From the NCBI GenBank assembly GCA_027486935.1, contig JAIXOF010000059.1, positions 1 to 62,371 of the forward strand: a stretch of 62,371 nucleotides of DNA. The letters are read 5' to 3'. Shown here in pieces: positions 45,903-50,628 of this stretch. Under the pieces are notes generated by a model. The model had not been told where the DNA came from. It saw nothing but the letters and a program-made list of their open reading frames with translations, and did not search any database. Both the position numbers and the translations under genes were made by a program. The stretch comes from Cyanobium sp. C1_MAG_00004. Lineage in GTDB: Bacteria > Cyanobacteriota > Cyanobacteriia > PCC-6307 > Cyanobiaceae. Within the stretch, counting starts at the first letter, position 1, and each line of letters opens with the position of its first letter.

Positions 45903-46241
45903 GTGTTCAGACGCAGGTGGCCCAAACCGGATGCCGTGGTGGTCCTGATGCTGCTGGGCGCAACCGCCTGCCCGGTTCAGGCCATGCCAGCCGATGGTCT
46001 GACCTGCCGGTCGATGGGCGGCCCCTGGCAGCCCTGCACGATGCGGATCGATGCCAATGGCCTGGAATGGCAGCTGAGAATCGGCACCCAACCGGCCATC
46101 CGGTTCAGACACGATGGTCTCGGCAACGTGAGCATGCGATCAGGCCCCAGCCTGTGGCAACCGGTGCAGGCTCGCTGGCTTGCCGATGCGAGTCTCTGTT
46201 GGAACGGCATCTGTGCCCGGGGACCTATCCCATTGGATTAA
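45903..46241 (+). CDS. Small secreted protein of unknown function with paired cysteines
   Basis: A 112-residue protein with a signal peptide (VVVLMLLGATACPVQA) and a mature domain of about 85 residues with four cysteines: a pair in LTCRSMGGPWQPC and a C-x4-C near the C-terminus (LCWNGIC). Two disulfides are likely in the periplasm or thylakoid lumen. The middle (WQLRIGTQPAIRFRHDGLG) is beta-rich. GTG 45903 gives the best N-terminus. It is convergent with cobW, overlapping its stop by four bases. No family recognised; the size and cysteine pattern resemble the other small secreted protein at 4.1 kb, but no clear homology can be claimed. Confidence 0.55.
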   Translation: MFRRRWPKPDAVVVLMLLGATACPVQAMPADGLTCRSMGGPWQPCTMRIDANGLEWQLRIGTQPAIRFRHDGLGNVSMRSGPSLWQPVQARWLADASLCWNGICARGPIPLD

Positions 46242-47368
46242 GCCGCCTGGTCCAGCAGCGTGCGCTGCAGACCGGCCTGGTCGAGAGCAAAGCCGAGTAC
46301 CACCAGCTTCAGCTGTCCCGTAGCTCGGGATGGTTGATCAGGGTCCGGACTGCCCTCGTACCAACAGTCCAACCGGGGCCCCACGGCCTGGATCTGCAGC
46401 AATCGCTGCTTGGCGGGACTGCTGTACCAGCCCTTGAGCCTGATCACCGTGTGCTCCCGCAGCAGGGTTCTAAGCGCCTGCTCGAGCTGCGGTTGCTGCC
46501 AATCCCCCTCGAACGTCAGGACAAGGGATTGGATCTGGACATGGCTGTGGTCATGGTCATGGTCATCGTCATGGCCGTGTTCATGGCTGTGTTCATGGCT
46601 GTGCTCGTGGCCATGGGCATGGGTGTGGTCATGCTCGTGCTCCGCGTTCGTTGCTGTCCGGGCAACTCGGGCGGACCCAATCGGGCTCAGCAGCAGCTCG
46701 GGATCGACAACCCCCGCCGCACTCGGCAGCAGGGGGGTTCCAGGGCGGCAGCGGGACGACAGCGTGGCCGTCAGGTTCTGCAGAGCCACCTCGCTGATGC
46801 AGTCAGCCCGGCTGATCAACACCAGATCGGCGGCTTGCAGCTGGTCCTCGAACAGATCCTCGATCGCATCGAGATGGTCGAGGCTGGGGTCGGCCAGGCG
46901 CTGGGCCTCGAGGGCGGCAGGGTCGGCGACCACATGGCCATCGGCCAGCGCCTGACCATCCACCACCGTCACAACACCATGGACGCGGGTGCGCGCGCGG
47001 ATGGATGGCCAGCCAAAAGCGGCCACCAGGGGCTCGGGCAGCGCCAGCCCACTGGTCTCGACGACGATGCCATCGAGCTCGTCCGAGCGCTGCAGCAGCT
47101 TCTCCATCGTCGGCAGAAAGTCATCCTGCACGGTGCAGCACAGGCAGCCATTCGCCAGTTCGACCAGACGCCCCTCGAGCTGATCGTCGGGACAGAACCC
47201 GCATGATTTCAGCAGCTCACCATCAATTCCCACCTCACCGAACTCGTTGACCAGCACCGCCAGTCGCTGGCCGCTGTGCAACAGCAGATGCCGCAGCACC
47301 GTGGTCTTGCCCGCCCCCAAAAAACCGGTCACAACGGTGACAGGAAGACGCTTCTGCGGGGCGCTCAA
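46238..47368 (-). CDS. cobW: CobW-type GTPase / metallochaperone (COG0523)
   Basis: A 376-residue G3E GTPase. The P-loop is GFLGAGKTT (residues 15-23), the metal-binding CLCC motif at 75-78 follows as NGCLCCTV, and the expected NKxD guanine motif is replaced by SRAD in LVLISRAD. Residues 244-276 are a His-rich arm with 16 histidines in 33 positions, plausible for cobalt or zinc storage. The C-terminal CobW_C domain is present. In a genome with cobN and metH it probably delivers cobalt to CobN, but some family members handle zinc. Start at 47366-47368 is clear. Confidence 0.9.
   Translation of the reverse strand: MSAPQKRLPVTVVTGFLGAGKTTVLRHLLLHSGQRLAVLVNEFGEVGIDGELLKSCGFCPDDQLEGRLVELANGCLCCTVQDDFLPTMEKLLQRSDELDGIVVETSGLALPEPLVAAFGWPSIRARTRVHGVVTVVDGQALADGHVVADPAALEAQRLADPSLDHLDAIEDLFEDQLQAADLVLISRADCISEVALQNLTATLSSRCRPGTPLLPSAAGVVDPELLLSPIGSARVARTATNAEHEHDHTHAHGHEHSHEHSHEHGHDDDHDHDHSHVQIQSLVLTFEGDWQQPQLEQALRTLLREHTVIRLKGWYSSPAKQRLLQIQAVGPRLDCWYEGSPDPDQPSRATGQLKLVVLGFALDQAGLQRTLLDQAA
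46541..46639 (-). repeat. His-rich coding repeat in cobW
   Basis: Degenerate tandem units of CAT/GTG-type codons (His alternating with Glu, Ser, Gly or Asp) encode 16 histidines in 33 residues. This is an intragenic repeat, not a CRISPR or satellite. Confidence 0.9.
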
Positions 47369-47407: not shown

Positions 47408-47908
47408 TCAGCGGCAGGCGAGGCTGTCGCGGGTGCTGATCCCCGTGCGGCTGTTGCTGCCGCAGGCCCTTTTGCAGAGAGCTTTCTGTTCGGGCAGGTC
47501 GAGCACGGCGTCACTGAAGTCCGCACCGGTGATCTCGGCACCTGCGAAATGGCTCTGCATCAACATCGCGTTGCGCAGGACCGCGTCGCGCAGATCGGCG
47601 CCGTCAAACCGGCTGGCGTAAGCCACCACATCTTCGAGATCAGCCCCCTGCAGGTTGCTCTGTTGCAGGTTGCTGCCGTTGAACACCGCCCCACGCAGAT
47701 CCGCACCGCTCAGATCAAAACCCGCCAGTTCCGCTTTGAGGAACTCCTGCTGCTTGAGATCGCGTCCATGCATGTCGGGCTGCAGGTCCTGCAAGGAGCG
47801 TTGACTGCGCAGTTCAGGCGCGGTGATCGCCCAACCGGGGCTGGCGCCGGCCAATGTGGTGACCATCACGGCGCAGACCAGAAACACGGCGGCTAACAGG
47901 CGGGCCAT
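47408..47908 (-). CDS. Exported pentapeptide-repeat protein
   Basis: A 166-residue protein with an N-terminal signal peptide (LLAAVFLVCAVMVTTLAG, cleavage near ASPGWA). About ten pentapeptide units of the A(D/N)LXX type follow (ELAGFDLSGADLRGAVF, NLQQSNLQGADLEDV), folding as a right-handed quadrilateral helix. The C-terminal tail has three cysteines (LCKRACG, SLACR), likely disulfide-linked. It is probably lumenal or periplasmic, like the lumenal TL17-type proteins of plants. ATG 47906-47908 is chosen; the longer frame to 48259 is antisense to the next gene. Its start is divergent from the UPRTase-like gene. Confidence 0.82.
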   Translation of the reverse strand: MARLLAAVFLVCAVMVTTLAGASPGWAITAPELRSQRSLQDLQPDMHGRDLKQQEFLKAELAGFDLSGADLRGAVFNGSNLQQSNLQGADLEDVVAYASRFDGADLRDAVLRNAMLMQSHFAGAEITGADFSDAVLDLPEQKALCKRACGSNSRTGISTRDSLACR

Positions 47909-47947
47909 GGGGCGGGAACTACGGTGGTCCAACAAGTTATGGCAGCC

Positions 47948-48592
47948 ATGGCGATGGCTTTGCGGGTCGTGGTCCCGCCTCACCCCCTGCTGAGCCACTG
48001 GTTGACGGTGCTGCGTGATCGGCAGACCCCGCAGCCGCTCTATGCCACGGCGATGGCTGAACTGGGGCGTTGGCTCGCCTATGAAGCCATGCGCGACTGG
48101 CTGCCCCGTCGTCAGGTCGAGATCAGCACCCCAACGGGCCCCAGCAGCGGCGAGGTGGTGGATGCTGCAGTCCCCCTGTTGGCGGTGGTCGGCCTGCGCG
48201 CCGGCCTGGGACTGTGGCAGGGGGGCCAGACGGTACTGCCGGCAGCCCTGGTCGGCCATCTGAGTGCTGACGCAGACGGACTGATCAATGCAGCCCTGCC
48301 CGATCCCCTGCCCCAGGGCTGCGGGGTGGTGCTCTTCTGGGGAGAGCTCGCCGAACCCGAACCGGTGCTGCAGGTGCTCAACAACCTGGCCGAACGGGGC
48401 ATCTCAGGCCCACGCCTGCGACTGATCACAGCGTTGGCGGCTGCTCCGGCACTGCACGCAATCGGCGAACGGCACGGGGAGCTGACCCTGCACTGCGCCG
48501 CCATCGACCCTGAGCTGGACGACCAGGGGGCGATCCGCCCTGGCATCGGCATGATCGAAACACGTCTGTTTGGCTTTCAGCAGGCCCGTTAG
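47948..48592 (+). CDS. Uracil phosphoribosyltransferase-like protein lacking the PRPP loop
   Basis: A 214-residue protein clearly related to UPRTase (Upp): HPLLSHWLTVLRD early, GRWLAYEAM, VVGLRAGLGLW, and a C-terminal PGIGMIETRLFG. The PRPP-binding loop, DPMLATGGS in canonical Upp, is replaced by FWGELAEPE around residues 130-138. It therefore probably does not make UMP as a normal UPRTase would; it may bind a nucleotide or serve another role. Several starts are possible (GTG 47924, ATG 47939, 47948, 47954); ATG 47948 is a compromise. Annotating it simply as upp would overstate its function. Confidence 0.8.
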   Translation: MAMALRVVVPPHPLLSHWLTVLRDRQTPQPLYATAMAELGRWLAYEAMRDWLPRRQVEISTPTGPSSGEVVDAAVPLLAVVGLRAGLGLWQGGQTVLPAALVGHLSADADGLINAALPDPLPQGCGVVLFWGELAEPEPVLQVLNNLAERGISGPRLRLITALAAAPALHAIGERHGELTLHCAAIDPELDDQGAIRPGIGMIETRLFGFQQAR

Positions 48593-48621: not shown

Positions 48622-48927
48622 ATGGCGCGACAGTCCGAAGCAGATTCCGGCAGCGCTCTGCTGGTCAGTGCCATGGCTGGGGCCGTCCTTGGTGCCGCGG
48701 GGCTTGCCTGGTGGCTGTTGTCTGAAGCCGAACGGCGCCGCCTGCAGCCACGTCAGCAGCGGGTTCTGCGTCTGAGCCGCCTGTCCGAAGGGGGCGATGC
48801 CGACGGGTTTGCCGAATCCTCATCTTTGTCGAATTCTGGCGAGAAGGAGCTTCACGACAAGGTTCACGAGCTCAATCAGGCGATCGACGATGTGCGTCGC
48901 CAGCTCGAGAGCATGGGGAGTCGGTAG
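48622..48927 (+). CDS. Conserved single-span membrane protein
   Basis: A 101-residue protein with one hydrophobic helix near residues 12-33 (LLVSAMAGAVLGAAGLAWWL) and a charged, helical C-terminal tail (ELHDKVHELNQAIDDVRRQL) that is likely a short coiled coil. It would sit in the plasma or thylakoid membrane with a cytoplasmic tail. No known family. ATG 48622 follows the UPRTase-like stop by 29 bp, and ilvD begins 27 bp later, so it may be part of the same transcript. Confidence 0.7.
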   Translation: MARQSEADSGSALLVSAMAGAVLGAAGLAWWLLSEAERRRLQPRQQRVLRLSRLSEGGDADGFAESSSLSNSGEKELHDKVHELNQAIDDVRRQLESMGSR

Positions 48928-48954: not shown

Positions 48955-50628
48955 ATGCTCCGCTCCGCCGCCATCACCCAGGGAATCCAGCGCTCGCCCA
49001 ACCGGGCCATGCTGCGGGCCGTGGGCTTCGGGGACGGCGATTTCAACAAGCCGATCATCGGCATTGCCAACGGCTACAGCACGATCACGCCCTGCAACGT
49101 CGGCCTCAACGACCTGACCCGTCGTGCCGAGCACGCTGCCCAGCAGGCCGGGGCCATGCCCCAGACCTTCGGCACGATCACCGTCAGCGACGGCATCTCG
49201 ATGGGTACCGAGGGTATGAAGTACTCGCTGGTGAGCCGCGAAGTCATCGCCGATTCGATCGAAACCGCCTGCAATGCCCAGAGCATGGATGGGTTGCTGG
49301 CGGTCGGCGGGTGTGACAAGAACATGCCCGGCGCCATGCTCGCCATGGCGCGGATGAATATCCCGGCGGTGTTCGTTTATGGCGGCACGATCAAGCCGGG
49401 CAAGCTCGGCGCCTGCGACCTGACGGTGGTCAGTGCCTTTGAGGCGGTGGGCCAGTACAGCGGCGGCCGCATCGACGAACAACAGCTCACCGCGATCGAA
49501 AAGAACGCCTGCCCCGGGGCTGGCAGCTGCGGCGGCATGTTCACCGCCAACACGATGAGCGCCGCGTTCGAAGTGATGGGTCTGAGCCTGCCCTACAGCT
49601 CAACCATGGCCGCCGAAGACCCCGAAAAGGCCGACAGCGCAGCCCGCAGCGCCGAAGTGCTGGTCGAGGCGATCGCCCAGAACATCCGGCCGCGGGATCT
49701 GCTGACCCGGGAAGCCTTCGAGAACGCCATCTCGGTGATCATGGCCGTGGGCGGCTCCACCAACTCGGTGCTGCACCTGCTGGCCGTAGCGCGCACCGCC
49801 GGTGTCGAGCTGTCGATCGACGACTTCGAGGTGATCCGTCAGCGGGTGCCGGTGATCTGCGATCTCAAGCCCAGCGGCCGCTTCGTCACGGTCGATCTGC
49901 ACAATGCAGGCGGCATCCCCCAGGTGATGAAACTGCTGCTCGATGCTGGGCTTCTGCATGGCGACTGCCGCACGGTCGAGGGCAAGACCCTGCGCGAGGT
50001 GCTGGCCGATGTGCCCAGCACGCCGCCTGCCGGCCAGGAGGTGATTCGCCCGCTCAGCAACCCTCTCTATGCCAAGGGGCACCTGGCGATTCTCAAGGGC
50101 AACCTGGCCAGCGAAGGCAGCGTGGCCAAGATCAGTGGCGTCAAGAACCCATCGGTCACCGGGCCGGCCCGGGTGTTCGAAAGCGAGGAAGAGGCTCTGG
50201 CGGCGATCCTGGCCAAGCAGATCAAGGCCGGCGATGTGGTCGTGATCCGCTATGAGGGCCCCGTGGGCGGCCCTGGCATGCGCGAAATGCTGGCACCCAC
50301 AGCCGCCATCATCGGCGAGGGCCTGGGTGATTCGGTGGCGCTGATCACCGACGGGCGCTTCTCGGGCGGCACCTACGGCATGGTCGTGGGTCACGTGGCC
50401 CCCGAAGCTGCCGTGGGCGGCCCCATCGGTCTGGTGCAGGAAGGCGACAGCATCACCGTCGATGCCCACCAACTGCTGATCCAACTCAATGTCAGCGATG
50501 ACGAGCTGGAGCGGCGCCGTGCCGCCTGGGTCAAGCCCGAGCCCCGTTACCGCACAGGTGTGCTGGGCAAATATGCGCGCCTGGTGAGCAGCAGCAGCAA
50601 AGGTGCCGTCACGGATCTGGTCCCGTAA
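48955..50628 (+). CDS. ilvD: Dihydroxy-acid dehydratase
   Basis: A 557-residue iron-sulfur dehydratase of valine and isoleucine synthesis, making 2-oxo acids from 2,3-dihydroxy acids. Iron-sulfur cysteines are in [12 protein letters not shown] and [16 protein letters not shown]; the C-terminal half has [12 protein letters not shown] and [10 protein letters not shown], typical of the DHAD/6PGDH-dehydratase family. ATG 48955 gives the standard start [19 protein letters not shown]. Length is normal. The stop overlaps the downstream convergent gene by 20 bp. Confidence 0.97.

Follow-up and report, generated by a model that had tools for sequence, protein, structure and literature searches.

The window, the whole 62,371-nt stretch of the Cyanobium sp. 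C1_MAG_00004 contig that was analysed, contains a gene at 47948..48592 (+ strand) for a protein of 214 amino acids related to uracil phosphoribosyltransferase (UPRT, Upp). The local gene order is cobW, pentapeptide, UPRT, ssl2009-like and ilvD. On the opposite strand are a CobW/COG0523-type GTPase with a long histidine-rich stretch, HEHDHTHAHGHEHSHEHSHEHGHDDDHDHDHSH (46238-47368, -), and a pentapeptide-repeat-like protein divergent to the UPRT gene (47408..47908, -). Downstream, a small ssl2009-like gene (48622..48927, +) starts 29 bp after the UPRT-like stop codon, and after a further 27 bp comes ilvD, encoding dihydroxy-acid dehydratase (48955..50628, +), a conserved neighbour that served as our second tree marker. 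The small protein matches the ssl2009 family of thylakoid membrane proteins with E 1.2e-7, below the curated cut-off; in the open literature searched we found no paper naming ssl2009. The same gene order is common to the intact Upp of other Cyanobiaceae, and the pentapeptide gene is a neighbour of intact and degenerate orthologues alike. The CobW-type GTPase, two genes away, is likely to be a metal chaperone, and is conserved beside the UPRT locus. By tblastn none of these neighbours is found beside the Upp of other cyanobacteria, in flanks that mostly extend to only 1.5 kb. An apparent fusion of the UPRT and ssl2009 genes in L079 is spurious, being caused by a stretch of N/X.

A UPRT fold in single copy

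The reading frame is open from a GTG at 47924 or an ATG at 47948 to 48592 (+). The in-frame upstream GTG is a possible start; the 214-aa form is likely, because the starts of orthologues match 47948. This protein matches the Pfam UPRTase family PF14681 with E 1e-34 and 120.3 bits (cut-off 27), covering positions 1-205 of the 206 in the profile. An AlphaFold2 model (pLDDT 89.3, pTM 0.87) is collinear over residues 3-211 with 14 solved UPRTs at VIA Z scores of 23-27.5, while the next-best PRTases reach 12.5; Foldseek gives the same ranking. From the profile match and the structural scores, therefore, the fold and family membership are solid, and the UPRTase-like protein of the initial annotation is borne out by reading frame, profile and model. 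Its warning that the name upp would mislead is equally well founded, since the protein lies below both NCBIfam Upp equivalogs, with 99.4 against 208.35 bits for TIGR01091 and 110.2 against 114 bits for NF001097. The PyrR equivalog NF003549 is absent among its NCBIfam matches at E up to 1.

No second UPRT scores above the cut-off in the genome of the window. The search for a canonical upp elsewhere, as the initial annotation had proposed, was thus negative, and the idea that this is a paralogue standing beside a canonical Upp is rejected. An intact PyrR, with the motif VDDVIFTGRT, is encoded elsewhere in the same genome, and probably carries out any residual salvage of uracil. The uracil/xanthine permease PF00860 has no match in this genome; it occurs in 14 of 151 genomes of the family, with intact and degenerate genes alike, and is uninformative about a link to uracil uptake.

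Loss of the active site

The loops were assigned by alignment with the UPRT of B. caldolyticus as reference. In place of the PRPP loop DPMLATGGS the window protein has WGELAEPEP at residues 131-139 (48338..48364, +). The initial annotation had recognized this loss, but placed the string one residue early, as FWGELAEPE at 130-138 where the correct span is W131-P139. The flexible loop (residues 105-118; 48260..48301, +), identified from the alignment and the M. tuberculosis enzyme (MtUPRT; PMC3570474), is eroded, so that the catalytic arginine equivalent to MtUPRT Arg102 is Ala109; in Prochlorococcus-type members the alignment shows the loop to be deleted altogether. The former uracil hood (residues 198-209; 48539..48574, +) reads PGIGMIETRLFG instead of PGLGDAGDRLFG, with GDAGDR changed to GMIETR and the D-A-G-D gone. 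Thus, of the Upp motifs that had been listed as retained, this one is damaged, although the fold itself is kept. The pyrophosphate loop R84-A85-G86 (48197..48205, +) is intact in the window protein by alignment, and is lost in most of the degenerate orthologues.

In MtUPRT, Arg102 and Asp198 have been proposed as catalytic residues, and Arg77 and Arg102 as ligands of PRPP (PMC3570474). By numbering, the position of Asp198 corresponds to Met202 of the window protein, and that of Arg77 to the retained Arg84. A simple motif scan of the protein found no relocated PRPP motif, and the collinearity of residues 3-211 with the solved structures places no intact PRPP loop elsewhere. Given the active-site losses, the collinear structure and the absence of a relocated loop, the protein is, to judge from its sequence, very unlikely to make UMP. 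The doubt already expressed about normal UMP synthesis is therefore strengthened, the damage extending beyond what had been described to the flexible-loop arginine and the hood.

Two states at one locus

How general is this decay? We scored the active site at nine positions in 97 aligned Cyanobiaceae orthologues. The distribution is bimodal: 30 proteins have all nine, 67 have six or fewer, and none has seven or eight. A comparison of the loop in relatives, which the initial annotation had suggested, thus finds most of them degenerate. The window protein lies inside a well-supported clade of cyanobacterial-type Upp (support 97; 62 rows) and within it a well-supported Cyanobiaceae clade (100). 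Since intact and degenerate genes occupy one syntenic position, the change is one of decay in place and not the recruitment of a paralogue; as read from alignment, tree and synteny, the window gene is a true orthologue of cyanobacterial-type Upp. We found no paper on a degenerate picocyanobacterial UPRT in the open literature searched.

The degenerate loops differ strongly between subclades, as in FWGELAEPE, FLPVLASGR, VDQISDGE and SEQITTK. This bears on whether the protein might still be an enzyme, with altered chemistry or substrate and a rebuilt loop such as the xDQIxxG of Prochlorococcus and marine Synechococcus. In that subclade D-Q-I does recur and the loop is not entirely without pattern, and animal UPRTs presumed to be inactive may be functional in vivo (PMC4536494). 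Yet the divergence between subclades counts against it, the equivalent of MtUPRT Arg102 and the hood G-D have nearly gone (1% each) from the degenerate proteins, and the animal enzymes, unlike these, have an intact PRPP site. We regard a rebuilt enzyme as improbable.

Four members of the intact set (L015, L019, L020 and L029, genus code g9) have DPILARG in place of DPMLATG in an otherwise intact Upp; some of these may already be impaired, perhaps at the beginning of the same decay. In genome G030 the degenerate gene is kept even though a second UPRT, with a canonical loop, is present (L076, L077). The second protein, L076 (G030:C24:155268-155876), is of a different, long-branch type with DPMLATGQS and GDAGDLSFG. 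Matches in Bdellovibrionota (L050-L060) fall outside the cyanobacterial-type clade; they are Upp of the generic kind, with DPLIATAD as their loop, and were set aside.

Repeated loss and retention of the gene

On a tree of 100 proteins the degenerate label requires four changes, three of which are forced by well-supported branches. Thus L072 groups with the intact L033 (98, well supported), and L062 and L067 with the intact L008, L010 and L011 (99, well supported). If loss is taken as irreversible, a UPRT tree built with the loops masked gives seven and the ilvD tree gives 13; many branches are weak in both trees. The active site has probably been lost several times, at least three to four on these sequences, the exact number depending on the tree.

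The gene itself is retained. It is present in 93 of 94 good genomes in one sample of the family, the exception being the 40-contig draft G085, and in all 61 good genomes of a second; this near-universal retention refers to GTDB samples that include draft genomes. Only two of the 61 score in the intact range, at 212 bits or more, and every aligned member below 191 bits was degenerate. The retaining genomes include Prochlorococcus-like ones of 1.6-1.9 Mb; from genome size and the character of their sequences, we take the small-genome genera to be Prochlorococcus and marine Synechococcus. Pairwise dN/dS lies between 0.01 and 0.27 (median 0.12) for degenerate genes and between 0.01 and 0.20 (median 0.10) for intact ones, and by this measure the degenerate genes are under purifying selection.

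These data count against the explanation that the gene is dying, kept by chance or as the leader of a transcript with the ssl2009-like gene and ilvD. Repeated loss of the enzyme and the tight spacing of 29 and 27 bp to the downstream genes would both fit. But dN/dS is about 0.1 across the coding frame, frames are open in nearly all good genomes, and some residues are invariant in 67 divergent members. Moreover, a gene can die in these genomes: pyrR is broken by in-frame stops in the single-contig genomes G086, G110 and G130, in all three of which the UPRT-like frame is open. A dying gene is therefore very improbable. The pyrR pseudogenes of these three genomes (genus code g56; for example G110:C1:1458554-1459073) are found where the relatives G056 and G146 keep pyrR intact, and the three seemingly cannot convert uracil to UMP via Upp or PyrR.

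In Prochlorococcus and related picocyanobacteria, then, the sole UPRT copy has lost its active site, while selection maintains the gene in almost all genomes. This points towards an additional function that is not enzymatic and that may lie in photosynthesis, as has been suggested for the plant protein. As a general claim, that the protein is a selected pseudoenzyme is highly probable.

A conserved N-terminal module

The conservation of the degenerate proteins is concentrated in an N-terminal module, residues 5-53 (LRVVVPPHPLLSHWLTVLRDRQTP...ELGRWLAYEAMRDWLP; 47960..48106, +, from the alignment), where mean identity is 74%; in the PRPP loop it is 28%. P10, W18, P28, G40, W42 and W51 do not vary among the 67 degenerate orthologues, and generic Upp has them rarely or not at all; the window protein carries all six. 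In a four-group comparison, the positions that cyanobacterial-type proteins share whether degenerate or intact, and that are rare in generic Upp, are R6, P10, W18, P28, L39, G40, W42, W51, L89, R158 and L169, most of which fall in the module. Conversely, the positions universal in Upp and lost in the degenerate group make up the catalytic shell, including R84, A85, H104, G106, R109, Y113, P132, A135 and D202-A-G-D205, of which the window protein itself still has R84, A85, H104 and A135.

Could the remnant pocket be a sensor of some small molecule, such as a nucleotide or a base, signalling pyrimidine status as PyrR does? PRTase folds have been reused as regulators, PyrR being the example, the window protein has an intact RAG loop, and the hood Pro-Gly-x-Gly with the following arginine is kept across the family. 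A PyrR-like role in nucleotide sensing is nevertheless disfavoured, because the loops that bind phosphate and uracil are what is lost. They are the most variable parts of the protein, the Prochlorococcus-type members have dispensed with the flexible loop, conservation sits in the N-terminal module instead, and a separate intact PyrR exists. We think a sensor unlikely, if the least unlikely of the alternatives.

The N-terminal residues could instead be kept for folding or dimerization. In one form of this explanation the module is conserved for subunit assembly only, in a complex with a metabolic enzyme such as PyrR or IlvD that has nothing to do with photosynthesis. UPRTs are dimers or tetramers, and ilvD is co-directional in all degenerate loci with enough flank, including L096, which has an insertion. 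While the ssl2009-like gene and ilvD are present at most loci, both are absent beside eight of 20 intact-Upp loci with longer flanks, and the N-terminal signature is older than this neighbourhood. On balance assembly alone seems rather unlikely, a little less so than a rebuilt enzyme.

The signature follows the photosynthetic lineage. A match of the cyanobacterial-type clade occurs in 193 of 194 Cyanobacteriia genomes, although in G522 the match is no better than that of a generic Upp. G399, G365 and probably G522 have no cyanobacterial-type Upp; hence it is not strictly universal, or these assemblies are incomplete. The signature was not seen in the Upp of sampled non-photosynthetic sister lineages; the additional Upp of generic type in other cyanobacteria lacks it as well. 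Many Cyanobacteriia outside the Cyanobiaceae carry two Upp, one cyanobacterial-type and one generic bacterial, with canonical loops in both.

A possible second role for Upp

The best explanation, to which we give a probability of about 0.6, is that the window gene is an Upp that decayed in place and was kept for a second, non-catalytic role, perhaps connected with the thylakoid or cytochrome b6f. A cyanobacterial-type Upp would have lost its PRPP loop, flexible-loop arginine and uracil hood while the UPRT fold and the N-terminal helical module stayed, the module providing a structural or protein-interaction surface for which the gene was retained. A conserved non-catalytic role of this module would explain both the recurrent loss of catalysis and the retention of the gene. 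The initial annotation had read the retained scaffold as a sign of a new binding or regulatory role. The scaffold is indeed kept; newness is the weaker part, because the N-terminal module already occurs in the intact Upp of nearly all the photosynthetic cyanobacteria sampled, and an old role unmasked by the loss of catalysis fits better.

Photosynthesis is suggested because the signature is restricted to a photosynthetic class. The role might be the building or maintenance of a thylakoid complex, with cytochrome b6f as first candidate by analogy with plants. Plastid UPP probably shares the PPHPLxxHW motif, and plant UPP deficient in catalysis may support greening. Plant plastid UPP is reported to be needed for functional cytochrome b6f (Scherer et al. 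2024, doi 10.1111/tpj.17036; cited in PMC12386182 and PMC12313756), and a review gives UPRT a marked role in setting up photosynthesis (PMC9312225). For the picocyanobacterial protein, we infer a thylakoid or b6f connection from the neighbouring gene, the lineage distribution and the plant analogy, and its assignment to b6f in particular is tentative. Equally speculative is the broader proposal that Upp may have been dual since early photosynthetic cyanobacteria, combining salvage with a role of the N-terminal module in assembling a complex of the thylakoid (in all likelihood cytochrome b6f), and that picocyanobacteria including Prochlorococcus dropped salvage several times while retaining the other role. 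Cyanobacteriia lacking cytochrome b6 were not usable as a natural test; nine have no match, of which several are fragmented and others (G172, G223) are otherwise complete. In G172 and G223, which are near-complete and have no match to PF00033, masking or interruption of the gene is likelier than its loss.

The upp genes of the most abundant photosynthetic organisms probably have no active UPRT product, which affects metabolic models and tools based on 5-fluorouracil. That catalysis has been lost repeatedly while the gene stayed amounts to a natural experiment in separating functions, and it predicts that the N-terminal module is the moonlighting part. If true, the dead picocyanobacterial orthologues would be natural separation-of-function proteins for the moonlighting role in plants.

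Comparison with known systems

Canonical Upp (B. caldolyticus 1i5e, T. thermophilus 1v9s, T. maritima 1o5o) belongs to the same Pfam family as the window protein and shares its fold with Z about 26. Both have the N-terminal HPL...H, the glycine of the pyrophosphate loop and the hood Pro-Gly-x-Gly, whereas the PRPP loop, flexible-loop arginine and hood D-A-G-D are present only in the canonical enzyme. PyrR has a type I PRTase fold like that of the window protein (Z about 12), but is a distinct family. Animal UPRT (human, and Drosophila Krishah) is a homologue likewise kept despite an apparent loss of substrate binding. The losses differ in kind; the animal proteins have a preserved PRPP site but are missing two of the glycines in the uracil site (PMC4536494), while in the window protein it is the PRPP loop itself that has gone.

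A further comparison is with cyanobacterial-type Upp that is still intact, as it occurs in Cyanobacteriia, the Cyanobiaceae genera coded g9, g25, g33, g36, g38, g48 and g51 among them. These proteins are of the same clade and share W18, W42 and W51, and in Cyanobiaceae the locus is also that of the window gene; they differ in having DP(M/I)xAxGxS/T, the flexible-loop arginine and GDAGDR, none of which the window protein retains. Plant plastid UPP has an intact active site. In Arabidopsis it is expected to be a cyanobacterial-type UPRT of the photosynthetic compartment, and a role in photosynthesis has been reported for it.
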